Positions 18,220-31,885 of a stretch of DNA of 64,000 nucleotides are shown piece after piece (positions within the stretch are counted from its first letter, which is position 1; each line of letters opens with the position of its first letter). Position numbers and translations under genes: made by a program. The notes beneath the pieces are model-generated. The model was not told the origin of the DNA. It made no database searches and saw only the letters and a program-made list of their open reading frames with translations. Source of the stretch: Chelativorans salis (GTDB lineage: Bacteria; Pseudomonadota; Alphaproteobacteria; Rhizobiales; Rhizobiaceae); assembly GCF_025336525.1 (NCBI RefSeq), contig NZ_JAOCZP010000005.1:1-64000 (forward strand). Reading direction: 5' to 3'.

Positions 18220-19593
18220 TCAGCGCTGCGCCCGATATTCGACTCGCGCAGCCTCATGAATAGGCCACGGGTATACCTCGGCCCCCACCTCCATCTGACG
18301 GTGCCTCTCGACATGCGGCTTCTTCGTGCCGCCATCAGCCTCACCCCAGAGGATGGAAAGCCTCGTTCCCCGTTCGGCCAGAGCGCCGCGCACCATGGCG
18401 AGGGATATCCACGCCCGCTCGTTGGCCGAATACACCGGGTAGGTCGACAGACCCACCAGTTCATTGTTCAACAAGACCTGATCATAGGGATGCGCCGCAT
18501 AGTGGCCGGCAGGCAGTTCCATCAGCTTGGGACCGGGAAACTCCTCCATCATGCCGGCAAAAATCTTGAGGACATCTGCCTTGTCCCAAACAAGCGTCAC
18601 CTTGGTGCGATGCGCTTCGCCTTCCATCTTCTCGAGCGCCTCGCGCCCGATGAAGTCGTGGTCGAACTTCACCACCCGCCCGTAGTCGAGATCCCATGGC
18701 GTAAGGTAAAAGTCCTCGACACTGTCGGGCTGGAAGCTTCCTCCGACTGAGCAGGTGGCTTCAAAGCCATTTGCCGGCAACCATTCGCGGTACGGACGCA
18801 TCTTTTCGCCCGAATAGATGGCTGGCAATGGAGACGGAATCCATCCCGATTCCATGGCCGCACACGAATAGGCCCGCGCGCCCGCGCGAAGCATGCCGTA
18901 CTTTTCTCCGACTTCGAGCAGGCGGTCATAAACCTTTGTTCGGTCTTCGTAAGGCCCCCACAGTTCGAGACCTTTCGCGCCACCCATGCCGTGACTCAGC
19001 GTCCGCGCCTTGCAGCCCGCTAGGGTGATTTCTCCCATGTTGAAGAACTTGGTGGTCAGCGGACCGCCCTCGTTGACCTCGTTAAGGATATCGAGCGCAA
19101 GCGGCCCCTGCACTTCGTAGCGGTAGAGCCTGCGGGGCTTGTCCGGGTTTTCGACTGACCGGATGTCCAGTTCGGTCTCGACGTCAAAGTCGCCGATCTC
19201 GGCCTGAAACTTCATCCAGTTCGCGAGAGGCGGACGTCCTACATAGAGGATTTCATCATCCTCGAGACCGAATATGATGCCGTCGCCGATGACGTAACCG
19301 TCGTAGTTGACGCAGACCAATTGCTTGGCTTTATCGCGGCCGAGATTGGCGAAGCTGTTGACGCCGACATAGGACATGAACTTGATGGCATCCGGCCCCC
19401 GCACGTACAAATCGGTCATGTGGTAGGATTGATTAAGCAGTACCGCGCCATGACGCCATGCGCGCACTTCTTCCATCCAGTTTGTATATTGTGGCGCAAT
19501 GGGAAACACGTACGGCCCCACCGGCGAATTCTGCAACATATGTGATGGATTGCCAATCCGATCGATTTTTTCTTGCAGGTTCTTGTCGGCCAT
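18220..19593 (-). CDS. Tetrahydrofolate-dependent aryl O-demethylase-like (LigM/DesA, GcvT fold)
   Basis: The 457-aa protein has the aminomethyltransferase/GcvT fold and the features of LigM/DesA-type demethylases: VLLNQSYHMTDLYVRGPDAI early on, LVCVNYDGYVIGDGIIFGLE, RYEVQGPLALDILNEV, the catalytic region ARAYSCAAMESGWIP, and a C-terminal barrel (AHPYDQVLLNNELVGLSTYP). LigM (vanillate/3-O-methylgallate) and DesA (syringate) move an aromatic O-methyl group to tetrahydrofolate; their length, about 460-470 aa, fits. Divergent purU and metF-like genes would process the methyl-THF made. ATG 19593 follows GGGAGGAAGG. The exact substrate is not determinable; another methyl-THF-forming demethylase is the alternative. 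Confidence 0.75.
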   Translation of the reverse strand: MADKNLQEKIDRIGNPSHMLQNSPVGPYVFPIAPQYTNWMEEVRAWRHGAVLLNQSYHMTDLYVRGPDAIKFMSYVGVNSFANLGRDKAKQLVCVNYDGYVIGDGIIFGLEDDEILYVGRPPLANWMKFQAEIGDFDVETELDIRSVENPDKPRRLYRYEVQGPLALDILNEVNEGGPLTTKFFNMGEITLAGCKARTLSHGMGGAKGLELWGPYEDRTKVYDRLLEVGEKYGMLRAGARAYSCAAMESGWIPSPLPAIYSGEKMRPYREWLPANGFEATCSVGGSFQPDSVEDFYLTPWDLDYGRVVKFDHDFIGREALEKMEGEAHRTKVTLVWDKADVLKIFAGMMEEFPGPKLMELPAGHYAAHPYDQVLLNNELVGLSTYPVYSANERAWISLAMVRGALAERGTRLSILWGEADGGTKKPHVERHRQMEVGAEVYPWPIHEAARVEYRAQR

Positions 19594-19665: not shown

Positions 19666-19695
19666 TTGAATAATCTAAGCTATTTTGATTATATT
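19666..19695 (+). promoter_or_regulatory. Candidate promoter of the double-HTH LysR gene
   Basis: TTGAAT (19666-19671) and TATATT (19690-19695) are separated by 18 nt in an AT-rich gap. Transcription would start near 19702, at or next to the preferred ATG, suggesting a leaderless or very short-leader mRNA. There is no good ribosome-binding site before 19702. Confidence 0.35.
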
Positions 19696-19701
19696 AAGAA
19701 C

Positions 19702-20916
19702 ATGGACATGCAGAGCCGACTTAGCCTCAAGCAAGCCAGAGTGATCGAGGCGGTAGCAATAGCGCGAGGGTTCGATGAAGCCTCACGCATCCTCAACATG
19801 AGTCAGCCCGTGGTCTCGCGGACGGTTGCATCGGCCGAGAACCTGCTTGGCGCAACGCTCTTTCAAAGGGGCTGGAGCGGTACCGAGCCGACCGTTTGGG
19901 GCGACACGATCCTGCAGCGATGTTCTGCGGCTCTCAAGCATATTGCGAGGGCGGAAGCGGACATCGTAGCCATTGGCAATACGAGGCCAAATCTGACCCC
20001 CTTCCTGCGTTGGCATCATCTCGACGCGGTTTCGGCGGTGATACGTTTCGGGAGCGCATCGGCAGCCTCAGTCCACCTGGGAATGGCTCAACCGGCCATC
20101 AGCCGGTCGCTCTCGGCCATTTCGGAATATTGCCGGCAGTCTTTGTTCGAGCGACGGCGCAATGGGCTGGAAGCGAGCCCGCAGGCGCGGAGACTCGCCG
20201 CACTTCGGGACGAATTGTTGCAGGAGTTGTCCCTGGACAACATCGATTTGGAACCCAGGCGCGGCCTGGTTGGAAGGCTGGCGGTCGGCATGCTGCCATT
20301 CTCCGGGCAGGATCTGGTGGCGCGGGCCTTTGGCTACCTTACGAACCGCTACCCGCATCTGCGCCTGATCGCGGTGCCGGGAAGCTACAACATGCTGACT
20401 GAGGCCCTTCGCAGGGGCGAGATCGATTGCATGATCGGGATACTGCGTTCTCCCACCCCTTTCCCCGAACTGGAGGAAATCTTCCTTTACAACGAGCGTT
20501 TCACGCTCGTTGCGCGGCAAGCCCACCCCTGCCATGCACGCGGGGTGACAATTTCCGACCTGCAAAAGGAAAGGTGGATCGTGGCGCCCCACGGCACACC
20601 GGTGCGATCATACTTCGGGAGGCTGTTTGAGTCCGTGGGCGCAGTCCCTCCCGCCCAGACGTGTGAAATCCTGTCGTTCAGCAACGCGGAGCAAGTCATC
20701 ATCAACAGCAACTCGATCGGGCTCCTGAGCTACAGCGACCAGCATATCGCGAGCCTTCCGCCAAGTCTCAAGAAGGTCAATATCGATCTGCCCGACTCCG
20801 AAACCCCGATCGGACTCACGGTGAAACGAACGGAAGGTTCAAGCGAGATCCTGGAAATATTTACGGGCCTTCTGCGTAATCTCTGTTCTCAGGGCGGTTC
20901 AACTCCGTTGATATAA
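19702..20916 (+). CDS. LysR-type regulator with two tandem HTH domains
   Basis: The 404-aa product is about 100 aa longer than normal LysR proteins because it has two LysR HTH modules. The first (about 8-66) contains VIEAVAIARGFDEASRILNM and SQPVVSRTVASAENLLGATL. The second (about 102-165) contains VIRFGSASAASVHLGMAQPA and ISRSLSAISEYCRQSLFERR. A single effector domain follows (GRLAVGMLPFSGQDLVARAF onward). It is divergent from the O-demethylase gene and upstream of purU and the metF-like gene, so it probably controls the C1/demethylation genes. ATG 19702 is preferred over the TTG at 19666, which lies inside the promoter candidate. Confidence 0.82.
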   Translation: MDMQSRLSLKQARVIEAVAIARGFDEASRILNMSQPVVSRTVASAENLLGATLFQRGWSGTEPTVWGDTILQRCSAALKHIARAEADIVAIGNTRPNLTPFLRWHHLDAVSAVIRFGSASAASVHLGMAQPAISRSLSAISEYCRQSLFERRRNGLEASPQARRLAALRDELLQELSLDNIDLEPRRGLVGRLAVGMLPFSGQDLVARAFGYLTNRYPHLRLIAVPGSYNMLTEALRRGEIDCMIGILRSPTPFPELEEIFLYNERFTLVARQAHPCHARGVTISDLQKERWIVAPHGTPVRSYFGRLFESVGAVPPAQTCEILSFSNAEQVIINSNSIGLLSYSDQHIASLPPSLKKVNIDLPDSETPIGLTVKRTEGSSEILEIFTGLLRNLCSQGGSTPLI

Positions 20917-21087: not shown

Positions 21088-21933
21088 ATGTCTCAGTACA
21101 TCCTGACCTTGAGGTGCCGGAACCGGGCGGGCATCGTCGCCGCCGTGGCTGGCCGCCTTGCCGAGAATGGCGGGGATATCTACGAGGCACAGCAATTCGA
21201 CGACCGGGAAACCGGCAACTTCTTCATGCGCGTCGCCTTTACGATGGACCAGGACATTGACGCCTTCCAGGCCGGTTTCTCGCACGAGGTGTTCAAGTTC
21301 GGCCTGGACTGGGCAATGCGGCCAGCTAGCCGCAAGCGCAAGGTCCTGATCCTCGTATCCAAATTCGACCACTGTATGGGTGATCTGCTTTACCGGATGC
21401 GCATTGGCGAGTTGAACATGGAATGCGTTGGTATCGTCTCGAACCATCCCAGTTCCGCGCTCCATGTCACCATGCATATGGGGGTTCCATATCATCACCT
21501 CGCAATCACCAGAGAAACAAAGTTGGAGCAGGAGAGTCAGATCAAGGCCCTGATCGAGGAAACCGGGGCCGAACTGATCGTTCTGGCCCGGTACATGCAA
21601 ATTCTCTCCGATGAGTTTTCGGCCTATCTTTCCGGCCGCTGCATCAACATCCACCATTCGTTCCTGCCCGGTTTCAAGGGTGCGAAGCCCTATCACCAGG
21701 CGCACGAACGCGGCGTGAAGACCATCGGCGCAACGGCACATTACGTCACGGCAGACCTCGACGAGGGGCCGATCATCGCGCAGGACGTCGAACACGTCAC
21801 CCACGCCGATACGCCCGAAGATCTCGTCCGAAAAGGAAGGGACATCGAACGTCGCGTTCTCGCCCGCGCCGTGGCGCTGCACCTAGAAGATCGCGTCCTG
21901 ATCAACGGGCGCAAGACGGTGGTGTTCTCATGA
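21088..21933 (+). CDS. purU: Formyltetrahydrofolate deformylase PurU
   Basis: The 281-aa product has an N-terminal ACT domain (YILTLRCRNRAGIVAAVAGR, about 3-80) and a formyl-transferase-fold catalytic domain with the Asn-His-Asp set in NIHHSFLPGFKGAKPYHQAH and IGATAHYVTADLDEGPIIAQ. PurU hydrolyses 10-formyl-THF to THF and formate. The ribosome-binding site is GGAAGGGAG. It is translationally coupled (ATGA) to the metF-like gene. Beside an O-demethylase its job is probably recycling THF and ending the C1 chain as formate, not purine synthesis. Confidence 0.92.
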   Translation: MSQYILTLRCRNRAGIVAAVAGRLAENGGDIYEAQQFDDRETGNFFMRVAFTMDQDIDAFQAGFSHEVFKFGLDWAMRPASRKRKVLILVSKFDHCMGDLLYRMRIGELNMECVGIVSNHPSSALHVTMHMGVPYHHLAITRETKLEQESQIKALIEETGAELIVLARYMQILSDEFSAYLSGRCINIHHSFLPGFKGAKPYHQAHERGVKTIGATAHYVTADLDEGPIIAQDVEHVTHADTPEDLVRKGRDIERRVLARAVALHLEDRVLINGRKTVVFS

Positions 21934-22838
21934 CATTATTCTCTCTGTCCAAGGCTGCCGCACCGACTGTCGACCGGGGCGCGGGATCTGCCAGGCTTCC
22001 CGCTTCAATCGAGGTTTCGCCACGGCAGGCCATTGAGTCCGCCGACTTGCCGAGCCTGTTCCCCAAAGGCACTCGCGTCTCTATCACCGACATGGGGCTG
22101 GATATACGTTTCACGCAGGTCATGGCAGCGAAACGGTTGCGCGACTTAGGCTATGTGCCTATCCCGCATATCGCCGTCCGCCGTGTCCGTGATCTCAGGG
22201 CCATGGACGATCGCATCCGGGCCATATCTCAAGAGGGTGGTGTGCGGGATGTTCTGGTCATAGCGGGCGGGCTCGAAAAGCCCGTAGGGACGTTTTCAGG
22301 GGCGATGGACGTGCTCGAAACGGGAGTGTTCGACAAATACGGCATTCGCGATATCGCCGTTGCGGGCCACCCGGAGGGCAGCCCGGATTTTTCTGAATCG
22401 GTGGCGATTGAAGTACTCAAACTGAAGCAGGATTTTGGCGAGCGCACCGGCGCGCGGATGCGTATCGTGACCCAGTTTGGCTTCGATGGCCGTAAGTTCG
22501 CCGAATGGGCGGGTGGCCTGTCGGCGCATGGCATCGATTTGCCCGTCCACATCGGGGTCGCCGGTCCGGCCAAACTGACGACAATGGTCAAGTATGCTGC
22601 GATGTGCGGCGTGGGCAGCTCCGTGTCCTTCCTCAAAAAGCGCGGCGGCTCGATTGCCACGCTCATGGGGGGATTCTCGCCCGACGAGGTAGTGGATCCC
22701 ATAGAGGCGTATGCGCACGCCAATCCCGCCTCGAGGATCGCCCAGATTCATGTCTTTCCGTTCGGCGGGATAAAGGCCGCGGCCGCATGGCTGTTCGAGC
22801 GGGGTACGTGGGCTGACAAGCGTGAGGGCGGTGCGTGA
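21930..22838 (+). CDS. Methylenetetrahydrofolate reductase-like protein (MetF family)
   Basis: The 302-aa TIM-barrel protein matches the MetF family: VSITDMGLDIRFTQVMAAKR, VPHIAVRR-like IPHIAVRRVRDLRAM, DVLVIAGGLEKPVGTFSGAM and IAVAGHPEGSPDFSESVAIE. The classic MetF E/D catalytic and flavin residues are only partly discernible by eye, so it may be one of the diverged MetF relatives that sit with LigM/DesA-type demethylases (in Sphingobium SYK-6 metF is in the ligM operon). The predicted role is oxidation of 5-methyl-THF to methylene-THF. Its ATG overlaps the purU stop. Confidence 0.8.
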   Translation: MTLFSLSKAAAPTVDRGAGSARLPASIEVSPRQAIESADLPSLFPKGTRVSITDMGLDIRFTQVMAAKRLRDLGYVPIPHIAVRRVRDLRAMDDRIRAISQEGGVRDVLVIAGGLEKPVGTFSGAMDVLETGVFDKYGIRDIAVAGHPEGSPDFSESVAIEVLKLKQDFGERTGARMRIVTQFGFDGRKFAEWAGGLSAHGIDLPVHIGVAGPAKLTTMVKYAAMCGVGSSVSFLKKRGGSIATLMGGFSPDEVVDPIEAYAHANPASRIAQIHVFPFGGIKAAAAWLFERGTWADKREGGA

Positions 22839-22862: not shown

Positions 22863-23744
22863 TCAGGCGGCAGCCTGCTCGATCAGATCAGAAAGCAACT
22901 CAGGCGCATCAACCATGATGTCGTGTCCAGACTGATCCTCCGGGACCCCGTAGGTTTCCCAGGTCGGATCGGCCTTGGTCTCTTCGTAATTCCTGGCGAA
23001 TGCAGGCTGCGGGAAACCAAGGGCTCGTACAAACAACTTCTTGGCTATCCGCTCGCGTGCGCCGGTAAGATGGGCCTTTGTGAAAACGGCATTCATCGGC
23101 TGAGGGGTCATCTTTGCGTTGACCCAATCGATATTCGCTTGCGTTTTTACCCCGAAGGCTTCCGCGGGGATCGGCGGCCTCGCTATAGTGCCCGCTGCAC
23201 GCAATTCATCAAGTTTCGCCCGTTGCTCGGGTGTGTTGGTGTCGTAGGCGCTTGTCCCATCCACCGGAAGAAATGCGTCTACCATGACCAGCGAGGATAC
23301 CTGCTTTTCGACTTTTTCAAGGGCGCCCGAACAGACCCAACCGGCATAGGAATGGGCAACGAGGGCGACGTCGTTGAGGTCCTCCCACCAGAACAGGTTG
23401 GTGATGTCCTGGATGTGCGTATTCATGTCGACGTCCGCACTGAGCATATGCGAATACTCCGCGAGGCCCGTCATTGTCGGCGTATACACGCGGTGTCCCT
23501 TTGCCTCGAGGATGTCGCGGACATGTTTCCAACACCAGCCCCCATGCCAGGCACCATGCACCAGAACGAACGTCTTCCGGCTTGTCTGGGCGACGGCAGG
23601 CGTCGCCAAGCCGGACGTCAGGGCGACCGCCGCAATCGTCGAGGCCCCCGTCAACACCGAGCGCCGCGACGGTTTTGGGACCGCGTTCAATGAAGCTCCG
23701 TTACCTGTGCGGCCTTTGGCGTAGGACTTGTGATTGATAGACAT
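22863..23744 (-). CDS. Tat-exported alpha/beta-hydrolase, SABP2/methylesterase-like
   Basis: The 293-aa product has a twin-arginine signal (SRRSVLTGASTIAAVAL, about 27-50, then a TPAVA cleavage site). The mature enzyme opens TFVLVHGAWHGGWCW with the oxyanion HGAWHG, has the nucleophile in VALVAHSYAGW and a catalytic His in SGHDIMVDAPE near the end. This is the small esterase group that includes EstC and plant salicylate-binding protein 2 methylesterases, which cleave methyl esters. It is last in the minus-strand TAXI-TRAP/sulfatase operon, 72 bp after the sulfatase, and probably hydrolyses an ester substrate in the periplasm. Confidence 0.8.
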   Translation of the reverse strand: MSINHKSYAKGRTGNGASLNAVPKPSRRSVLTGASTIAAVALTSGLATPAVAQTSRKTFVLVHGAWHGGWCWKHVRDILEAKGHRVYTPTMTGLAEYSHMLSADVDMNTHIQDITNLFWWEDLNDVALVAHSYAGWVCSGALEKVEKQVSSLVMVDAFLPVDGTSAYDTNTPEQRAKLDELRAAGTIARPPIPAEAFGVKTQANIDWVNAKMTPQPMNAVFTKAHLTGARERIAKKLFVRALGFPQPAFARNYEETKADPTWETYGVPEDQSGHDIMVDAPELLSDLIEQAAA

Positions 23745-23816: not shown

Positions 23817-25397
23817 CTAGGCCTGTCCGGTCGGAACCGGCGCCCGGTCAACTGCTGCGATCTCCGCTCGCGCCAGCATTTCCATCAGCCGGACCTTCTC
23901 AGACACAGCAGCGGGAACATCGAACAGATTGTGCAACTCCTCCGGGTCCGTCTCGAGGTCGTAGAGCTCCCCAAAATCGGTTCCCTGATAGATTGACAGG
24001 CGCCAGCGGCCATCGTGCAGCGTGTGCACTCTGGGCTGCGGTCCAAAAGCCGGATCGGTTTTCTGGTGATCATATTGGATAAGGGCGGCGCTGCGTCCCT
24101 CTCCGCCAGCAACGGGCAGCCTGATGCCTTGCATGCCAACCGGGGCTTCGATCATGGCGCGCTCAAGTATCGTCGTGCCGATGTCGAGTGTCTGGCCAAT
24201 GGCATCGCTTCGCTCGCCCGTCTTCCCCTCGGGATCCGACCAGATAAACGGGACCCTGGTTATCTGCTCATACTGCTCTGCACCTTTGAAAAGCAGCCCG
24301 TGATCGCCAAGATGGTCGCCATGGTCGGAGGTGAATATTTTCACCGTATCGTCCGCCCTGCCCGTCCGGTCGAGACTGGAGACAACCGTGCCCACAGCGT
24401 CGTCGATCATTGCGATCAGGCCGCAGGTCAGTGCACGGGCCTCCAGCGCCTCGCGTGCCGAGCACGCAACCGTACCCATGCCCGCAAGGTTCGCCCGCCC
24501 TTCCTCGCGCTCCCTGATCGCCGCCGCCACGTGAAAGGGCGGCGTCCAATCATTGGCGGCAAAGGCCGCCGGCAGCGCCATTTCCTGAGGCTTGTACATA
24601 TCCCAGTATTTACCCGGCGGATTGAACGGATGATGCGGATCTGGCCAGGACACCATCAGAAAGAACGGCTTGTCGCTATCCGCGCGATCTTCGATCCATT
24701 TTGTCGCCCGCTCGGCGATGAAAGTGGTCGAGTAGTGCTCCGGCGCCACCGCCGTGCGCACGGCCTGCGGGCAGGAATAGTCGTGCGGGAGCTGGTTCTT
24801 GATGCCGATCTTCGATGCCGCGTCCGCATCGCGGTCGGCCACCCACTGCACATAGTCGCCGCCCGCCGCATCCCCGTGTCCGGTCACCAGCTCCACATGG
24901 TCGAAGCCATAGAATGGCGTTGGAACCTTTGGCTGCGGCCCGTCCCAAAAGTCCGGCTCTTCCACACGAAAGAACGGATCCCGATATTCCGTGCGTACCG
25001 ACTGATCGAGCGGCCAGTCGGCCCGGAAATGGTCTGGCCGGGTCACCGGCGGCTCGATCATCGACGGTCTGCCGCTGAAGTTCTGCAAATGGCTCTTGCC
25101 GATCAGCGCGGTTTCGTATCCGGCCGCTTTGAGCACCTCGACGAAGGTGACATTGCGCCGTTCCAGCGGAATGCCGTTGGCCCTTACGCCATGGCTTGAA
25201 GGCATGCGGCAGGTCATAAGGCTCGCCCTGTTGGGCATGCAGACCGGGCTCGCCACGTAGAACTTATCGAACCTGATACCGGACCCGGCCAACCTGTCGA
25301 TATTGGGGGTTTTGAGCACCGGGTGGCCATAGCATCCCAGAAAATCAGCCCGGTGCTGATCGGTGATGAAAAGGATGAAATTGGGACGCTTAGGCAT
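23817..25397 (-). CDS. Cys-type sulfatase family protein
   Basis: The 526-aa product opens PNFILFITDQHRADFLGCYG (metal-binding Asp residues) and has the formylglycine motif SPVCMPNRASLMTCR (about 49-63), i.e. C-x-P-x-R, then the downstream YETALIGKSHL and the metal site IFTSDHGDHLGDHG. There is no signal peptide, so it is cytosolic. Cys-type sulfatases need an FGE-type maturase, which is not in this window. Relatives cleave sulfate esters, and some act as phosphonate- or choline-sulfate hydrolases. It overlaps the TRAP permease stop by 8 nt, so it should act on the imported ligand. ATG 25397 was chosen over 25445 because the fold starts there. Confidence 0.85.
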   Translation of the reverse strand: MPKRPNFILFITDQHRADFLGCYGHPVLKTPNIDRLAGSGIRFDKFYVASPVCMPNRASLMTCRMPSSHGVRANGIPLERRNVTFVEVLKAAGYETALIGKSHLQNFSGRPSMIEPPVTRPDHFRADWPLDQSVRTEYRDPFFRVEEPDFWDGPQPKVPTPFYGFDHVELVTGHGDAAGGDYVQWVADRDADAASKIGIKNQLPHDYSCPQAVRTAVAPEHYSTTFIAERATKWIEDRADSDKPFFLMVSWPDPHHPFNPPGKYWDMYKPQEMALPAAFAANDWTPPFHVAAAIREREEGRANLAGMGTVACSAREALEARALTCGLIAMIDDAVGTVVSSLDRTGRADDTVKIFTSDHGDHLGDHGLLFKGAEQYEQITRVPFIWSDPEGKTGERSDAIGQTLDIGTTILERAMIEAPVGMQGIRLPVAGGEGRSAALIQYDHQKTDPAFGPQPRVHTLHDGRWRLSIYQGTDFGELYDLETDPEELHNLFDVPAAVSEKVRLMEMLARAEIAAVDRAPVPTGQA

Positions 25398-27336
25398 TGA
25401 CCACCTTTGTACGGCTGAGAAAAAGGCGCGCGGCAACGATCGCAATACCGGCTGCTATGCCAGCCGAGTCGACGAGATGACCGCCGGGAATGGCAGATCC
25501 GGGTACAAAGCAAGCAGCACCCGCCAGGATGAATGCCAAGCGCCACACGGCGCTCAGCCTTCCGCCAAAGAAGCCGATCCAGCCTGCCGAAACGAGCCAC
25601 ACGCCGACCACCGAGAGAACGAAGATCCTTGCGATCTCAAATGGTGTTCCCTGCCAGAGCATTTCGGGCGACAAGGCGAAGATGAAAGGCACCACATAGG
25701 CCGGCCACCCGAAGACCACCGCGGCAAATCCGGTCTTGACGAAATCCGCCTTCGCTATCGTCGCACCGGCAAACGCCGCGGCGGCCACGGGCGGAGTAAT
25801 CATCGAGAGGATGCCGAAATAGAACGCGAACATATGCGCTGCGATGGGGGGCACGCCTGCTTCCACCATCGAAGGCGCAACAAGCGTCGCGAGCAGCAGA
25901 TACACACCCACCGTGGGCATACCCATACCCAATACGATCGAGATGGCACCGGAAAGCAGGAGAATGACCGCGAGGTTACCCCCAGAGAGCTCAATGATCG
26001 CCTGGGTCAACGCAAAGCCGAGGCCAGTGATATTGAGCACGCCGATCACCACACCCGCCATGGCTGAGACCATGAGCAGTTGGGTCACGGCGACGCCGGT
26101 ATCGCCAACCGCCTCGAGCAGCCGTGTCCAATGCATGCGCACGCCGCGATAACCAAACACCAGCGCGATCGGAATGATCAGACCTGTCGCATACATGGCA
26201 GCGGTCTGCGGCTGCAGGTTTAAGGTGAACAGTCCGACAATGATCACCACGAAGGGCGAGATATAGAGCCAGCCCTTCGAGAGCACCTCGAGCACATTGT
26301 ATCTCATCTCGTCGGCCGAACGGATATTTTCCTTGGCCGCGTACAGGTCGGCCTGGATAAACAGCGACACGTAATAAAGGATCGCCGGGATCAGAGCCGC
26401 GAGAATGATATCCGTGTACGGCACCTGCAGAAATTCGGCCATCAGAAACGCAGCCGCGCCCATCATCGGTGGCATGAGCTGGCCACCCGTCGAGGCCACA
26501 GCCTCGATAGCCGCAGCCCGCTCCGGCGGATAGCCACTCCTTTTCATCATCGGTATGGTAATTACGCCGGTCGAAACAACATTGGCCACGGCGCTGCCCG
26601 AAATCGAACCGAACAGCGATGATGCGACAACGGCGATCTTGGCGGACCCGCCGCGATATTTGCCCATCAGCGCCGCTGAAATCTCGGTGAAGAAGCTGGC
26701 TCCGCCCGATGCGTTGAGCAAATTGCCGAAGAAGATGAAGGGCACGACGATCGACACCACCACCCCGATCGGCAACCCGATAATCCCGCTTGCGTCCATG
26801 CCGAGATAGATCAGCAGCCGGTCGATGGCGACCTCGCGCCCCTGGAAATGACCGGGAACAAGGTGCCCTACAAGCCCGAAGGCCAGGAAGAACAGAACGA
26901 AGCCGAAAAGCATCGTCCCCGCGGTGCGCCGCAAGCATTCGGCGACCGAAACCACGATGATGGTGGCCGCGGCCACGGAGCTGAACGGCTTGTCGAACAG
27001 GGTCGCGACAATGCCGACATAATTGATCGCTACATAGGTGCAGGCGCCGAACGCCAGTATCGCCGCCACGGCGTCATACCAAGGCAAACGCGTCTTCGCC
27101 GTGTGACGCGTGAAGGGTTGCACGATGAAGACCGTCGCCAGCGCCAGACCGAGGATGACGGCCAGCAACTGCTCGTTGATCAACACCAGTCCGAAGGCCC
27201 GATAGAGATCGAGTGCATTCGCCAGCGAGAGCAGCACCAGAACCGAGCCGATAATCTTGCCGGCTAAAACAATCTTCGGATTATCTTGCTCGATATGTTC
27301 AGCGGTGTCCGCCTTCGAAGCTTCAGGCCTGGACAT
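25390..27336 (-). CDS. TAXI-TRAP fused permease (DctQ-like + DctM-like)
   Basis: The 648-aa protein is an intact fused TRAP permease. About 30-180 are the four N-terminal helices, and from about 190 on is the 12-TM large subunit with the DctM blocks SISGSAVANVVSTGVITIPM, STGGQLMPPMMGAAAFLMAE, GMGMPTVGVYLLLATLVAPS and SMITPPVAAAAFAGATIAKA. It is the membrane part of the second TAXI-TRAP system and accepts ligand from the receptor gene just upstream. Unlike the permease at 10.2-12.1 kb it has no frame disruption. Confidence 0.9.
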   Translation of the reverse strand: MSRPEASKADTAEHIEQDNPKIVLAGKIIGSVLVLLSLANALDLYRAFGLVLINEQLLAVILGLALATVFIVQPFTRHTAKTRLPWYDAVAAILAFGACTYVAINYVGIVATLFDKPFSSVAAATIIVVSVAECLRRTAGTMLFGFVLFFLAFGLVGHLVPGHFQGREVAIDRLLIYLGMDASGIIGLPIGVVVSIVVPFIFFGNLLNASGGASFFTEISAALMGKYRGGSAKIAVVASSLFGSISGSAVANVVSTGVITIPMMKRSGYPPERAAAIEAVASTGGQLMPPMMGAAAFLMAEFLQVPYTDIILAALIPAILYYVSLFIQADLYAAKENIRSADEMRYNVLEVLSKGWLYISPFVVIIVGLFTLNLQPQTAAMYATGLIIPIALVFGYRGVRMHWTRLLEAVGDTGVAVTQLLMVSAMAGVVIGVLNITGLGFALTQAIIELSGGNLAVILLLSGAISIVLGMGMPTVGVYLLLATLVAPSMVEAGVPPIAAHMFAFYFGILSMITPPVAAAAFAGATIAKADFVKTGFAAVVFGWPAYVVPFIFALSPEMLWQGTPFEIARIFVLSVVGVWLVSAGWIGFFGGRLSAVWRLAFILAGAACFVPGSAIPGGHLVDSAGIAAGIAIVAARLFLSRTKVVNA

Positions 27337-27421: not shown

Positions 27422-28363
27422 TTACAGGCCGGCTTCGGTGTAGAATTGTTCGGCGCCGGGGTGGAAGGGAACGCCGATATCGGTGTGCATCGCGGCCGGA
27501 TCGAAGCCGTTGAACGCCCCGTTCGCGGCCACCAGAGCCTTTTTGTTGGCGTGAAGCGCCTTGACCAGATTGTAGACCACCTCGTCCGGCACATCCGCGC
27601 CGGCGAGAATGACGAAAGGCGTGGTATAGGCACCCTGCGGCTCGGTTATGCCGGGAAAGTTCGGACCGGGCTTGACCTCGGCCACCCATGCTCCCGGCGA
27701 AATGGCCTCGATCTTGGCGTTTGCGTCCTCCGACTTCTCTATCGGCAGGATACGAATGCCGCCCAAAGCCGCGTCCGCCTGCTTGGTGCGCCCCGAGGAC
27801 AGGGAGAAGAACGTTGCATCGACATTGCCCGTCTCCAAATCCTCGACACCACGCACACCGTCCGGCACCGGCACTCTTTGCACGTCGTCATAGGTCATGC
27901 CGACCGTGTTCAGCGTGGCCTCGGCATTGGTCTGGACGGCCTGCTGCGTGAGGAAATCGGACGCGACGCGCTTGCCCTGGAGATCCTGCAGGGTGTGAAT
28001 GTCGCTGTCGTTGCGCACGATGAAGCCGCTGTAGAGATCGAACAACACCGCGACCATGCGGATGTTTTCGTTCGGGCTGCTGAATTCGCCCTGGCCGGTA
28101 TATGCAAAGGCAGCGGCGACCCCGTTGGCGATGGAGAATTCCAGCTCTCCGTTGTTCACCAGCGGAACGACCACATTCGGCCCGCCCTGCGGCACGACGC
28201 GCATCCGAATATCGCCCTCCTCGATGGCAACCTTGGACACGGCCGCCCCTGTCGCATAGGCCAGCGAGCCTTGCGGGTTTGTCCCGATCGAGATCGTCTG
28301 GGCCGAAGCGGCGCCGGACAGCCCCGCTACGATGGCAGCCGCAAGCAAAATACGAGAAATCAT
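27422..28363 (-). CDS. TAXI-family TRAP solute-binding protein
   Basis: The 313-aa product has a Sec signal (MISRILLAAAIVAGLSGAAS, AQ cleavage). The mature part opens TISIGTNPQGSLAYATGAAV, with TAXI-family blocks RMRVVPQGGPNVVVPLVNNG and LRDLQGKR-like TLQDLQGKRVASDFLTQQAV. It captures the ligand for the permease downstream. ATG 28363 is chosen because the signal peptide starts there after a strong GGGAGGAGAAG site; the ORF extends further upstream only through non-signal sequence. Its promoter region carries the conserved regulatory site at 28420-28464. Confidence 0.9.
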   Translation of the reverse strand: MISRILLAAAIVAGLSGAASAQTISIGTNPQGSLAYATGAAVSKVAIEEGDIRMRVVPQGGPNVVVPLVNNGELEFSIANGVAAAFAYTGQGEFSSPNENIRMVAVLFDLYSGFIVRNDSDIHTLQDLQGKRVASDFLTQQAVQTNAEATLNTVGMTYDDVQRVPVPDGVRGVEDLETGNVDATFFSLSSGRTKQADAALGGIRILPIEKSEDANAKIEAISPGAWVAEVKPGPNFPGITEPQGAYTTPFVILAGADVPDEVVYNLVKALHANKKALVAANGAFNGFDPAAMHTDIGVPFHPGAEQFYTEAGL

Positions 28364-28398
28364 CTTCTCCTCCCTTTTTGACGATTTTAAATAACAAC

Positions 28399-28464
28399 TG
28401 ACAGGAGAATTCTTGATATGTAAATTGCTAAACTTGCGGCAAAACATAGCGAAATTGCTATGTT
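28399..28464 (-). promoter_or_regulatory. Shared operator/promoter site, copy A
   Basis: The region contains TGACAGGAGAA (28399-28409), GTAAATTGCTAAAC (28420 onward) and the dyad ATAGCGAAATTGCTAT, which extends to AACATAGC...GCTATGTT at 28443-28464. A second copy at 32006-32070 has the same three elements with the same internal spacing. LysR proteins typically bind such a dyad plus a downstream half site (the TTGCTAA box). It lies upstream of the TAXI-TRAP receptor gene and downstream of the LysR gene at 28624-29535, which is the best candidate to bind it. Confidence 0.65.
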
Positions 28465-28623
28465 GGCGCTGACATCGCTCCGCTCGAAAAGGAGCCGGAC
28501 AATCGATCGGCCCTGAACCCGGGAGCGAAGCTGTCAATGCCTCCGGAGACGGGATCAGAATATTGGGCGATCGAAAGCGTGCGGCGCAGATTTCGCACAC
28601 CCCTTGGCTGACCGGACGCCAGG

Positions 28624-29535
28624 CTATGCTTTTGCCGCCACTCGGATGTCGTTGATCAACGTCTCGCAAGCTGCGCTTTGCGGAATAGCGGGATCGGTAC
28701 TGATTCCTATAGGCCCCTGAAGCTCCGGGGCGAAAATGTTCAGGCGCCGCAGGTCTCCGCGTTCGAGATCCTGCCGTATGACTCCCACCGGTACGATCCA
28801 GACAAAACCGTTTGCGATCACAAGAGCACGCGCGAGTTCAATGAGATTCGTTTCGACGACATCACCAAACCCGGTAATCCCATGTTCAAGTAGAAAACGG
28901 TCAATTTCATTCCGAATGATCGTATCCGCCTGATGCAAGACGACGCTGTGGTCGCCCAAGTCGGCCAGTTCGACATGTTCCAGTTCAAAAAGCGCGTGAT
29001 CAGGGGCGGCAACAAAGGCGATTTCCTCGGAGTATAGATGTTCGAACGCCAGCCCCCTCATGGCTTCTGCCGCAGCGAGGCGGCCATACACGAAATGCAC
29101 ATCTCCACGCCGCAATTTTGAGAGCAGTTCCGCGTTGGTCCCGCTTGCAACATGCACTGTGGTCTGGGGGAAACGCCGTTTAAAGTCGCGTACGACACGC
29201 GCAAAAGTTGCTCCCGCAACGGTCGGCAGAGCACCTGCTTTCACAACGTCCGTTGAGTTGGAGCGGTTGCCGGCCATGGCAACGCCCATATCGATCTGCG
29301 CCAACCCCGAAGTAGCATGCCGCTGCAGAAGCTGCCCGGCCTCCGTAAGCTTGGAACCGCGTTGGCTGCGGTCGAACAGCGGCAACCCGACAACGCGCTC
29401 CAACTCACCGATTGTTCTGGAGACTGCCGACTGCGTCAAATGCAACGCTTCGGCCGCACGCACAACGCCCCCCTGCCGCGCAACTTCAAGGAAAACGCGC
29501 AGCTGTCTGATCCTGACACGGTTCTTCACAATCAC
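28624..29535 (-). CDS. LysR-type regulator
   Basis: The 303-aa product has a canonical N-terminal HTH (IRQLRVFLEVARQGGVVRAA, LTQSAVSRTIGELERVVG, about 9-58) and a substrate-binding domain resembling the PcaQ/GbpR group (VVKAGALPTVAGATFARVVR). The start is GTG 29535. It lies between the ring-cleavage genes and the TAXI-TRAP genes on the same strand. The conserved dyads in front of both transcription units make it the likely regulator of the whole block. Confidence 0.87.
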   Translation of the reverse strand: MIVKNRVRIRQLRVFLEVARQGGVVRAAEALHLTQSAVSRTIGELERVVGLPLFDRSQRGSKLTEAGQLLQRHATSGLAQIDMGVAMAGNRSNSTDVVKAGALPTVAGATFARVVRDFKRRFPQTTVHVASGTNAELLSKLRRGDVHFVYGRLAAAEAMRGLAFEHLYSEEIAFVAAPDHALFELEHVELADLGDHSVVLHQADTIIRNEIDRFLLEHGITGFGDVVETNLIELARALVIANGFVWIVPVGVIRQDLERGDLRRLNIFAPELQGPIGISTDPAIPQSAACETLINDIRVAAKA

Positions 29536-29633: not shown

Positions 29634-29948
29634 TCAGCTTGACAGCGGCTGGATACGGTGGGCCTTGAAACGGTCGGGCAGGCGGACGATTTCGACGCTG
29701 TCGACGATGCCGGCAATAGTAAACGGGTCAGCTTCGACGAAGGCCCGCACCTCGGCTTCGCCCGCCGCTTCGAAAATGCCGAAATTACCGACGTCGGTCT
29801 CCCCGTCCGCCTCGGTCAGGGCGCTGCCGGTCAGCACCCTGACGACACCATTGCCGCCCGATGCCACATGGACGCGGTGCTGGTCGTGTTGCGCTTTCTT
29901 GACCGCCTGCGAGCCCGGCTTATGCCAGCAGATCATCAAGAAGTACAT
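29634..29948 (-). CDS. YciI-like / muconolactone-isomerase-fold protein
   Basis: The 104-aa product opens MYFLMICWHKPGSQAVKKAQ, continues HDQHRVHVASGGNGVVRVLT and DVGNFGIFEAAGEAEVRAFV, and ends EIVRLPDRF. It has the dimeric alpha/beta-barrel pattern of YciI-like proteins. The start is 8 nt after the LigB stop with a GGAGCGGAG site, so it is translationally linked. YciI-like proteins beside ring-cleavage enzymes are usually thought to help isomerise or tautomerise products, but this is family lore, not proven. Confidence 0.75.
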   Translation of the reverse strand: MYFLMICWHKPGSQAVKKAQHDQHRVHVASGGNGVVRVLTGSALTEADGETDVGNFGIFEAAGEAEVRAFVEADPFTIAGIVDSVEIVRLPDRFKAHRIQPLSS

Positions 29949-29956
29949 CTCCGCTC

Positions 29957-30799
29957 CTAGGTCTGGTTCTCCAGCACCACCATGCCGGCGCCAGTCAGCG
30001 AGGCCGGCGCATAGTAATGCTTGTGTTTCAAATCGACCTTCGGGTCCATAGCGGCACGCATGACGAGCCACATGATTAGCTCCGCACCTTCCGAACCGAA
30101 CTGCTCGACATAGTCCTCCCGCGACATGTTGCGGTATTTCTCGTAGTCGTTTGCGATCCCGTCGAGCCAGGCCTCGTCCGCCTCGCGGTTGATGAAGCCC
30201 GCGCGGCTGCCCTGCAATTGGTGCGACAGGCCGCCAGTGCCCATGATCACCACACGCCCGTCGCCCGGGAAGCTCTCGATCGCGTCGCGCAGTACCTTGC
30301 CCATTTCCCAGCAGCGCAGCGGCGTCGGGATCGGGTACTGGATGGTGTTTACCCAGATCGGAACGACCTTGACCGGCCACTTGTCCGGGCGGCCGAAGAA
30401 TAACTCCATCGGAACCTGCAGGCCGTGGTCCACCTCGATCTCGCGGCAAACGAGTGGGTCGAAATGCTGCTCGACCAGCTTGTCGACGAAATGCCATGAG
30501 AGGTCCGAAGCGCCTGCAAACTCGGGAATGGAACGCGGGCCCCAACCCTCGTCGACGGGCTTGTAGCTTTCGGCCACACCGACGGCGAAGGTCGGGACCC
30601 GGTCGAGGAAGAAAGAATTGCCGTGGTCGTTGAAGATCACCACTGCAATGTCCGGCTTGGCTTGCTTCATCCACTCCTTGCCGGGGATGTAGCCGTCGAA
30701 AAACGGCTTCCAGTCCGGCGTGTCCGCCATACCCTTGTCAAGCGCGACACCGATGGAGGGAACATGGCTCGTGCCGACGCCGCCAATGATCTTGGCCAT
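29957..30799 (-). CDS. Class III extradiol ring-cleavage dioxygenase, LigB-like beta subunit
   Basis: The 280-aa product opens IIGGVGTSHVPSIGVALDKG. The His in GTSHVP is a predicted iron ligand in LigB proteins. It has VVIFNDHGNSFFLDRVPTFA with a second likely ligand His in NDHGN, an EVDHGLQVPMELFFG block, and IMGTGGLSHQLQG, close to the conserved active-site GGLSH. LigB is the catalytic subunit of protocatechuate 4,5-dioxygenase, and relatives act on gallate and 3-O-methylgallate. Its start is 3 nt after the fused LigA gene ends, as expected for a heterodimer operon. The exact catechol is not determined. Confidence 0.88.
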   Translation of the reverse strand: MAKIIGGVGTSHVPSIGVALDKGMADTPDWKPFFDGYIPGKEWMKQAKPDIAVVIFNDHGNSFFLDRVPTFAVGVAESYKPVDEGWGPRSIPEFAGASDLSWHFVDKLVEQHFDPLVCREIEVDHGLQVPMELFFGRPDKWPVKVVPIWVNTIQYPIPTPLRCWEMGKVLRDAIESFPGDGRVVIMGTGGLSHQLQGSRAGFINREADEAWLDGIANDYEKYRNMSREDYVEQFGSEGAELIMWLVMRAAMDPKVDLKHKHYYAPASLTGAGMVVLENQT

Positions 30800-30802
30800 T
30801 TG

Positions 30803-31885
30803 TCAGACCTTTCCCAAACGCTGCGCCAGGAAGGCGTCGTGGTCCATGCCGGCCTGCGCGGCCGCGATTCGCGTCATCGGCGTCGGGTCGATGGCCGAGA
30901 TTTTCAGGATGAAGAACAGGTTGCCGCCAAGGCGCACCATCTCGTGCCAGTCGCGCGCCTTCACGGCGGCCCTTTCCTCGTCGGAAAGGCCGTAGCGGTC
31001 GAGATAGGCGTCCTCGTCGGCCTTGAAAGCTTCGCGGTTCTCGGCACGACCGAGATCCATCGCCATCTTGTTCATGCGATAGCCTCTGAAGTTCGCCTCG
31101 CGATCGAACAGAGGCGTCTCGGGCAGAGCCTGCTTGCCGTCTTCCGACGTGTCGGTCATCTTGTCCTCCTTCTGCCAGCCTGCCATCCACATGCGCATGG
31201 CCGCGGTCACCGCCTCGGGCTGCTCCAGCGGCGCGAAGTGGCCAGCGTCTTCGATGATCACCAGACGAGCATCGGGCAGCAGCGCCAGCATGTCCTCATG
31301 CTGCGCGACCGGGCTCCACTTGTCGTAACGCCCCACCACCAGCAGCACCGGACAGGTGACTGTACCGAGATAGGCTGCGGCGTCCGGCCGGCTGAGCAGC
31401 GCCTCGATCTGGCGCTCGTGCTGTTCGGGACTGGCACGCAGCACCATCTCGGTCAGCCCATCCATCAGCACTTCGTCGCCATGGTGGGCCTCGTGCACCA
31501 TGGGCGGCAGCCAGCGTGCCGCCAGTGCGGACATGCCGTCGCTGTAGGCGAGATCGACCAGTTCCTGCCGCTTGATTTCCTCGCCCTCGCGACGGGGATG
31601 AATGCCGGTGTCGATCAAGGCGAGCTTCGCAACACGTTCAGGCGCCAATCTCACCATTTCGAGCGCGATGCGTGCGCCCATGGAATGCCCTGCCACCCAC
31701 AGCACGCCCGGATGCCTGGTTAGAATGTCTTCGGCCATGCCCGTGATGGAAACGCCGGCGCTGACGTCGGCGATGCCGATTGGCATGTCCTTGCCGAAGA
31801 CTCCGGCTTGCTTGTGCCAGGCGAAGCTGTCGCACAAGAGGCCAGGGATCAGGACGAGCGTTGGCTGGCTCATTTGCTCTGCCAA
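30803..31885 (-). CDS. Alpha/beta-hydrolase fused to LigA-like dioxygenase alpha subunit
   Basis: One 360-aa frame. Residues 1-238 are an alpha/beta-hydrolase: TLVLIPGLLCDSFAWHKQ, nucleophile in LWVAGHSMGARIAL (about 62-75), acid in VVGRYDKWSPVA, His in EDAGHFAPLEQPE. Residues 243-360 are a LigA domain: ETPLFDREANFRGYRMNKMA, DRYGLSDEERAAVKARDWHE and RLGGNLFFILKISAIDPTPM, about 118 aa like free LigA. Just before Met-243 (ATG 31159) the DNA has AGAAGGAGGACAAG, an excellent ribosome-binding site, so free LigA may also be made internally. LigB follows 3 nt after the stop. The hydrolase may act on a ring-cleavage or methyl-ester intermediate, as DesC/DesD do. Confidence 0.85.
   Translation of the reverse strand: MAEQMSQPTLVLIPGLLCDSFAWHKQAGVFGKDMPIGIADVSAGVSITGMAEDILTRHPGVLWVAGHSMGARIALEMVRLAPERVAKLALIDTGIHPRREGEEIKRQELVDLAYSDGMSALAARWLPPMVHEAHHGDEVLMDGLTEMVLRASPEQHERQIEALLSRPDAAAYLGTVTCPVLLVVGRYDKWSPVAQHEDMLALLPDARLVIIEDAGHFAPLEQPEAVTAAMRMWMAGWQKEDKMTDTSEDGKQALPETPLFDREANFRGYRMNKMAMDLGRAENREAFKADEDAYLDRYGLSDEERAAVKARDWHEMVRLGGNLFFILKISAIDPTPMTRIAAAQAGMDHDAFLAQRLGKV
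31157..31175 (-). promoter_or_regulatory. Internal ribosome-binding site and start inside the LigA fusion
   Basis: On the minus strand AGAAGGAGGACAAG precedes ATG 31159, in frame with the fusion. It sits exactly at the boundary between the hydrolase and LigA parts, where a stop codon would normally separate two genes. Confidence 0.65.

Follow-up and report, generated by a model that had tools for sequence, protein, structure and literature searches.

An alpha/beta-hydrolase gene joined in frame, at least twice, to the gene for the LigA-type alpha subunit of an extradiol dioxygenase in Chelativorans and a second genus of its order

Within a 64,000-nucleotide stretch of DNA from Chelativorans salis (the window), a single open reading frame encodes an alpha/beta-hydrolase joined to the LigA-type alpha subunit of a class III extradiol dioxygenase, and the gene for the catalytic LigB-type subunit lies directly downstream. 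Two neighbouring genes, which probably serve consecutive steps in the breakdown of methoxylated plant aromatics, have become one gene, and this hydrolase-ligA join has at least two origins, one in Chelativorans and one in another genus of the same order that we call g170. In our judgement, the fusion is fairly probably an MgaC::MgaA-type enzyme that ties the opening of the 3-O-methylgallate (3MGA) ring to the hydrolysis of CHMOD. Syringyl lignin breakdown can run via 3MGA, and the unstable ring-opening product spills into PDC. A repeated fusion that appears all but obligatory in g170 and apparently optional in Chelativorans offers a natural comparison for tethering, flux, and leakage, and the fusion is a possible part for lignin conversion strains. 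The Chelativorans case also illustrates that adjacent genes can merge while the inner start signal stays. The features of the fusion gene and its immediate surroundings are as follows.

30803..31873, minus strand: alpha/beta-hydrolase::LigA fusion gene, 356 aa from its ATG, no internal stop
31172..31873, minus strand: alpha/beta-hydrolase domain, residues 1-234, GHSMG nucleophile motif, Pfam and PDB-sequence matches
31165..31171, minus strand: internal Shine-Dalgarno (SD) AAGGAGG, 5 nt ahead of the LigA ATG
30806..31159, minus strand: LigA-type dioxygenase alpha subunit from the internal ATG (Met-239 of 356), PF07746, match to 1b4u chain A
29957..30799, minus strand: LigB-type catalytic beta subunit, PF02900 at 189.5 bits, aligned with 1b4u chain B
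29634..29960, minus strand: YCII-domain ORF after ligB, PF03795 at 34.1 bits, exact start not fixed

Both Pfam domains lie in one stop-free protein, as the first-pass annotation of this DNA had proposed. The hydrolase part scores 50 bits against Abhydrolase_1 (PF00561, cut-off 25.8) and 43.6 bits against Abhydrolase_6, and the PF00561 score together with the GHSMG nucleophile elbow places it in the alpha/beta-hydrolase superfamily. Its Asp and His regions align with 4uhh, and we take these regions to have catalytic roles. The LigA domain is a member of PF07746, with 100.2 bits against a cut-off of 25.3, covering profile positions 1-86 of 87 at residues 271-356. Gene coordinates agree with the earlier observation that ligB starts 3 nt past the fusion stop codon. 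LigB exceeds the cut-offs of three class III subfamily models in addition to its PF02900 match, and its SH, NDH, DHG, GGLSHQ, and SEGAE motifs (metal and acid-base motifs) align with 1b4u chain B; the roles of these motif residues are taken from PMC3962378 and PMC8431788.

The ORF list also allows a TTG start at 31885 (30803..31885, minus strand), from which the protein would have 360 aa and the LigA Met would be residue 243 rather than 239. This longer form was the one annotated originally, and we have corrected it to the 356-aa form since the ATG at 31873 is the likelier start and the TTG an unlikely one, judging from three features of the sequences compared: the residues MSQPTL are common to all three Chelativorans fusions while the DNA upstream of the ATG varies, a GGAGG-type SD precedes the ATG in C. 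alearense, and split homologues begin near the same point in the alignment.

The same in-frame join occurs in Chelativorans xinjiangense (L034, 92% identity) and C. alearense (L035, 91%). Relatives are thus not always split, and the presence of the join in three Chelativorans species establishes that a whole hydrolase and a whole LigA are truly fused. Pairwise dN/dS values among the three fused genes are 0.14-0.18 for the hydrolase, 0.04-0.10 for LigA, and 0.055-0.082 for the adjoining LigB; both domains of the fusion are under purifying selection. Sixteen Chelativorans genomes were searched, with each of the two fused relatives counted once despite repeat records. Three carry the fusion (the window's included), one carries separate genes, and 12 have no match at 1e-30. 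The exception, G002, has a hydrolase gene and a ligA gene whose products are 62% and 70% identical to the corresponding parts, so homologues with separate genes, for which the first-pass annotation had suggested a search, do exist within the genus.

A second set of fusions was found in g170, where hydrolase and LigA are encoded in frame and with no intervening stop in all three genomes of the genus covered by our survey of the order (397 genomes): G623, G504, and G469, at 59-60% identity. A contig-end fragment in G488 (L090/L154) looks fused too, as far as the partial sequence extends. We built a tree of 40 loci from concatenated hydrolase, LigA, and LigB sequences, comprising seven fused rows, 31 split rows, and two outgroup rows with other gene orders. 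A starred branch lies between the Chelativorans trio (support 100/100) and the g170 trio (97/95), and each trio groups among split relatives. A single clade of all seven fused rows is rejected in this tree (p-AU 1.03e-21), as is a single clade of the six fused rows without L154 (p-AU 1.1e-43). Grouping L154 with g170 is not rejected (p 0.21), and the fragment may share the g170 origin. A quick tree of the hydrolase only, with 49 chosen rows, also separates the two fused groups. Given the AU rejection of one fused clade and the agreement of the hydrolase-only tree, the join has at least two origins; one ancestral fusion that later split elsewhere is rejected by the same tests on the concatenated rows. 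Surveys of the family (394 genomes, E cut-off 1e-30), class (385 genomes, 1e-35), and phylum (398 genomes, 1e-45) produced no further stop-free row spanning both domains beyond the Chelativorans ones. These surveys overlap, sample part of each larger group, and scored at most five candidates per genome, a design that distant fusions would escape.

The junctions of split relatives suggest how the join came about. Our junction table holds 46 rows drawn from 130 loci (nine fused, 36 split, and one with its parts far apart), which reduce to seven fused and 31 split rows once repeated junctions are removed. The hydrolase and ligA genes lie in different frames at 28 of the 31 distinct split junctions; only three share a frame and are separated by a stop. 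One recurrent arrangement is a short overlap: the ligA ATG comes before the hydrolase TGA, and the ligA SD falls within the hydrolase end. A net one-base change in such an overlapping junction would give the Chelativorans frame. Because most split relatives have the two genes in different frames, a frame change is the likelier event on the present alignments, and the original wording, that an upstream stop had been lost, is not confirmed. Three candidate fusions were discarded during this comparison: L105, whose 406-aa open frame seemed to cover both parts, has a stop at the junction, and L036 and L082 keep one frame with stops between the genes.

The first-pass annotation further held that the LigA start signal had survived the merger, and this is borne out: the letters directly before the LigA Met read AGAAGGAGGACAAG. 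PF07746 occurs once per genome in all six fused genomes tested (the window's own G000, G001, G003, G504, G623, and G469) and is also single in the split genome G002. Since LigA is single-copy, free LigA in Chelativorans could come only from the fusion gene. Among the 36, 35, and 39 in-frame ATG, GTG, and TTG codons of the three Chelativorans fusion genes, the LigA ATG has the strongest SD pairing, with anti-SD energies of -12.2 (window), -12.2, and -11.8 kcal/mol. Pairing at the fusion start is weaker than at the LigA start in all three (-2.6 in the window, -6.0, and -9.3 kcal/mol), and that at the ligB start is -6.0 kcal/mol in each. For comparison, the ligA starts of 23 listed split loci range from -1.1 to -14.8 kcal/mol. 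The stronger SD of the LigA start makes it plausible that Chelativorans produces LigA in two forms, tethered and free, a finely balanced proposition towards which we lean. Conservation of the internal SD across the three species is not significant by itself, as 12.5% of 5-codon windows are equally conserved, and we therefore rejected it as proof that the internal start is used. In the predicted RNAs, the LigA AUG is unpaired with values of 0.37, 0.13, and 0.10 versus local means of 0.38, 0.35, and 0.36, making it more paired than its surroundings in two of them; the internal SD is more open (0.58, 0.73, and 0.76).

The LigA boundary in g170 has no ATG, only an in-frame GTG (the Val of VPLFD) with SD energies of 0.4 (G504), -4.9 (G623), and 0.4 (G469) kcal/mol, and no boundary codon is among the five best in-frame start candidates of the g170 fusions. 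Given the single LigA copy and the lack of a boundary ATG, LigA in g170 is probably always tethered, unless the boundary GTG is used; it is this GTG that keeps us from saying that only the tethered form exists.

These observations bear on whether the join matters at all. It could be a neutral by-product: the frames would have been merged by a chance indel, the hydrolase would function while carrying LigA as a tail, and the Chelativorans dioxygenase would be built mainly from free LigA initiated at the internal start. We consider this account possible but doubtful. One small indel would suffice, since split relatives keep hydrolase and ligA close and often overlapping, and in every Chelativorans species compared the internal SD pairs more strongly than the SD of the fusion start. 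The account fits g170 poorly, though: LigA is single-copy, the boundary has no ATG, and its GTG has little SD, so a working pathway there must depend mostly on tethered LigA. Nor would a neutral by-product lead one to expect the purifying selection under which the hydrolase remains in the fused genes.

The inference of substrate draws on the genes around the fusion, and the window contains the following additional features.

18220..19593, minus strand: DesA/LigM-type tetrahydrofolate-dependent O-demethylase, NF047633 at 574.6 of 800 bits and NF047885 at 537.5 of 580 bits
21088-21933, plus strand: PurU formyl-THF deformylase, above its cut-off
21930-22838, plus strand: MTHFR-like protein, forming a C1 recycling pair with PurU
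22863-23744, minus strand: second alpha/beta-hydrolase
25390-27336, minus strand: TAXI-TRAP fused permease, TIGR02123 above cut-off
27422-28669, minus strand: TAXI-TRAP binding protein, TIGR02122 above cut-off
28624..29535, minus strand: PcaQ-like LysR regulator, TIGR02424 at 266.6 bits, below the 303.8 cut-off

The demethylase falls below both equivalog cut-offs (NF047633 and NF047885), hence our naming it by type. Homologues of the PurU and MTHFR-like proteins are also paired in L142 and L143. About 27-30 kb past the window, the same contig carries a 4-oxalomesaconate tautomerase and LigK, both above their cut-offs, and beside this distal set are a PIG-L protein and a LigI-like amidohydrolase (G000 contig 15, 90695-94134, L166). 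The PIG-L protein is presumably the hydratase, by analogy with GalB. The window's genome thus holds the gene content of an MgaABC-type route: a hydrolase with a LigAB pair, the tautomerase, an aldolase, the putative PIG-L hydratase, and an O-demethylase. We saw no SnoaL gene in the window's cluster. The YCII ORF has a YCII match at the corresponding position in L049, and inspection by eye shows similar ORFs in L079 and L167; it may stand in for MgaD as the tautomerase.

Some further features of these stretches were recorded. The LysR-type protein encoded at 19666-20916 (plus strand) has a PcaQ-like match only from residue 115 and a match to another LysR model at residues 20-101, and may carry two helix-turn-helix domains. 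The window's second hydrolase has 35-38% identical homologues just after ligB in the actinobacterial loci L052-L055, whose ligA products are 63-72% identical to the window's LigA. A second TAXI-TRAP-like system was seen by eye near the lower-pathway genes of L166. Catechol 2,3-dioxygenase-like genes are present in several clusters (L151 3901-4851, L167 5681-6646, and L141 8720-9712).

Related neighbourhoods have a broadly similar composition. A demethylase homologue is present in 12 of the 20 neighbourhoods listed; among the eight without one, L034 and L035 stop short of the place it occupies in the window. Agrobacterium larrymoorei has LigM (653.1 bits, cut-off 580), PurU, tautomerase, and LigK around its hydrolase-ligA-ligB genes, and sphingomonad plasmids carry homologous hydrolases in one stretch together with metF, purU, a demethylase, and an NTF2/SnoaL gene. 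SnoaL_4 occurs close to homologous hydrolases at three loci: immediately adjacent in L189, at a distance of one gene in L191, and of about 2.4 kb in L142. The split set of G002 (ligB-ligA-hydrolase) adjoins ORFs resembling tautomerase (PF04303), aldolase, and PIG-L, with catechol-dioxygenase-like and YCII-like ORFs between it and these lower-pathway ORFs (both partly by eye). Close to the g170 fusion are genes for a 4-oxalomesaconate tautomerase, a PIG-L protein, and a VanA_C Rieske oxygenase, the last accompanied by a reductase-like ORF; this stretch also encodes a protocatechuate 3,4-dioxygenase alpha subunit, which indicates that other aromatics are handled there too.

This context places the likely substrate in 3-O-methylgallate/syringate-type catabolism and marks the hydrolase domain as MgaC/DesC-type. 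This assignment is carried by gene context rather than homology, given that MgaC and DesC themselves are reported to share only 13% identity (PMC12314914). If the MgaC::MgaA-type reading is right, the LigA domain would pair with LigB to form a ring-opening dioxygenase for 3MGA or a similar 5-methoxy catechol, and the tethered hydrolase would cleave the methyl ester of CHMOD, an unstable product, ahead of its cyclisation to PDC. A small indel would have put two adjacent or overlapping genes into one frame, at least twice; Chelativorans, retaining the old ligA start, would probably make free LigA as well, and g170, with no ATG at the boundary, would probably keep LigA tethered at all times. The active site lies at the LigA-LigB interface, and LigA carrying an N-terminal tag can still associate with LigB (PMC10094722), so nothing obvious forbids a hydrolase at the N-terminus. 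Phe103 of SYK-6 LigA governs C5 substituents (PMC10094722), and the corresponding residue of the window's LigA is Met in our alignment, which may be compatible with a bulkier C5 group but is only a hint.

We consider it improbable that the substrate of the dioxygenase is instead protocatechuate, gallate, or another catechol and that the hydrolase works on some other ring-opening product. The best solved-structure matches of LigA and LigB are indeed protocatechuate 4,5-dioxygenase chains, yet all four protocatechuate 4,5-dioxygenase alpha NCBIfam models listed score below cut-off (90.1 of 173, 87.8 of 161, 84.2 of 108.6, and 45.3 of 141 bits). L190 (G1354, from another class) keeps a ligAB set with GFO/IDH (LigC-like) and amidohydrolase (LigI-like) neighbours apart from a separate hydrolase-ligA-ligB set, which supports different jobs for the two sets. 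Inspection by eye of the ORF lists of L036, L044, L049, L151, L166, and L167 revealed no LigC-like gene, and methoxy-aromatic demethylases recur nearby. A different substrate would sit well with the catechol 2,3-dioxygenase-like gene in some clusters and with L192, where a homologous hydrolase is beside an FAA hydrolase, a case that counts against a uniform context. Finally, although a single base could join or separate frames of this kind, a sequencing or assembly error is hardly credible and a sequencing slip is rejected, given that the fused frame occurs in three Chelativorans species at 91-92% identity with different codons and again in g170.

Returning to the MgaC::MgaA-type reading, we have asked what tethering might be for. 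Our fullest proposal is that two lineages independently linked the specificity subunit of the 3MGA dioxygenase to the CHMOD hydrolase for hand-over within the complex and less loss to PDC, with a tether that is all but obligatory in g170 and a set ratio of tethered to free LigA in Chelativorans. Taken as a whole this proposal is tentative and rather unlikely to hold in every part. PDC need not be a dead end in Chelativorans, where a LigI-like gene is found beside the tautomerase. Its product is 56-58% identical to our LigI query, which is itself a candidate only because it adjoins tautomerase and LigK genes; the best NCBIfam match of the query, to 4-sulfomuconolactone hydrolase, falls below cut-off. 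Neither g170 nor G002 has a match to this LigI candidate at 1e-3, and leakage may on that account be costlier in g170 than in Chelativorans. G002 counts against the leakage-cost argument, as it has separate hydrolase and ligA genes. A simple rule that the fusion goes with LigI absence likewise fails, since Chelativorans has a LigI-like gene and the split G002 has none.

The closest functional parallel is Pseudomonas sp. NGC7, where MgaAB is assigned to the opening of 3MGA to CHMOD on the syringate route, deletion of mgaC leads to PDC from syringate, and CHMOD has a half-life of about 70 min (PMC12314914). The window and its genome resemble the NGC7 MgaAB and MgaC system in their LigA/LigB-type subunits, alpha/beta-hydrolase, 4-oxalomesaconate tautomerase, LigK/GalC-type aldolase, and candidate-hydratase PIG-L protein, a likeness of gene context. 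Unlike the fusion described here, the mga genes of NGC7 are separate. NGC7 also has a VanAB-type demethylase and the SnoaL protein MgaD, whereas the window has a DesA/LigM-type demethylase and the YCII ORF; MgaD is a SnoaL_4 domain protein and is not essential (PMC12314914). DesC, the CHMOD methylesterase of Sphingobium SYK-6 and Novosphingobium, belongs by locus numbers to a ligM/metF neighbourhood (PMC12997858), and the window likewise has an alpha/beta-hydrolase in a demethylase/metF-type neighbourhood. N. pentaromativorans has a 47% identical hydrolase in a stretch with metF, purU, ligA, ligB, a demethylase, and a SnoaL protein; this hydrolase, whose identity as DesC would follow from its context, is unfused, unlike that of the window.

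Among class III extradiol dioxygenases, the window's subunits share LigA and LigB homology with LigAB, PcaA, and DesB/GalA. LigA-LigB fusions are already known in both alpha-beta and beta-alpha order (PMC8431788, PMC3962378), but these join two parts of one dioxygenase, while the window joins the alpha part to the likely next enzyme. A hydrolase joined to a class III dioxygenase alpha subunit is not named in the literature titles or abstract openings that we searched. The PcaDC/PcaCD lactonase-decarboxylases are similar in that an alpha/beta-hydrolase is fused to a neighbouring-step enzyme of aromatic catabolism. Their partner is a decarboxylase, in contrast to the dioxygenase subunit here, and the window fusion scores 94.4 of the 390 bits set for the PcaDC model NF051488. 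A laboratory-selected CatA-GcoA fusion is mentioned in PMC12997858. As for the internal start, Haloferax Cas8b/Cas11b offers a parallel, in which translation beginning in frame within a larger gene yields a second subunit (PMC11899642); the proteins are unrelated, and the internal product is shown there but only predicted for the window fusion. Fusions of neighbouring-step enzymes in aromatic catabolism are thus already known, and the main point of the present case is its repeated origin together with the contrast between an internal ATG kept in one lineage and lost in the other.
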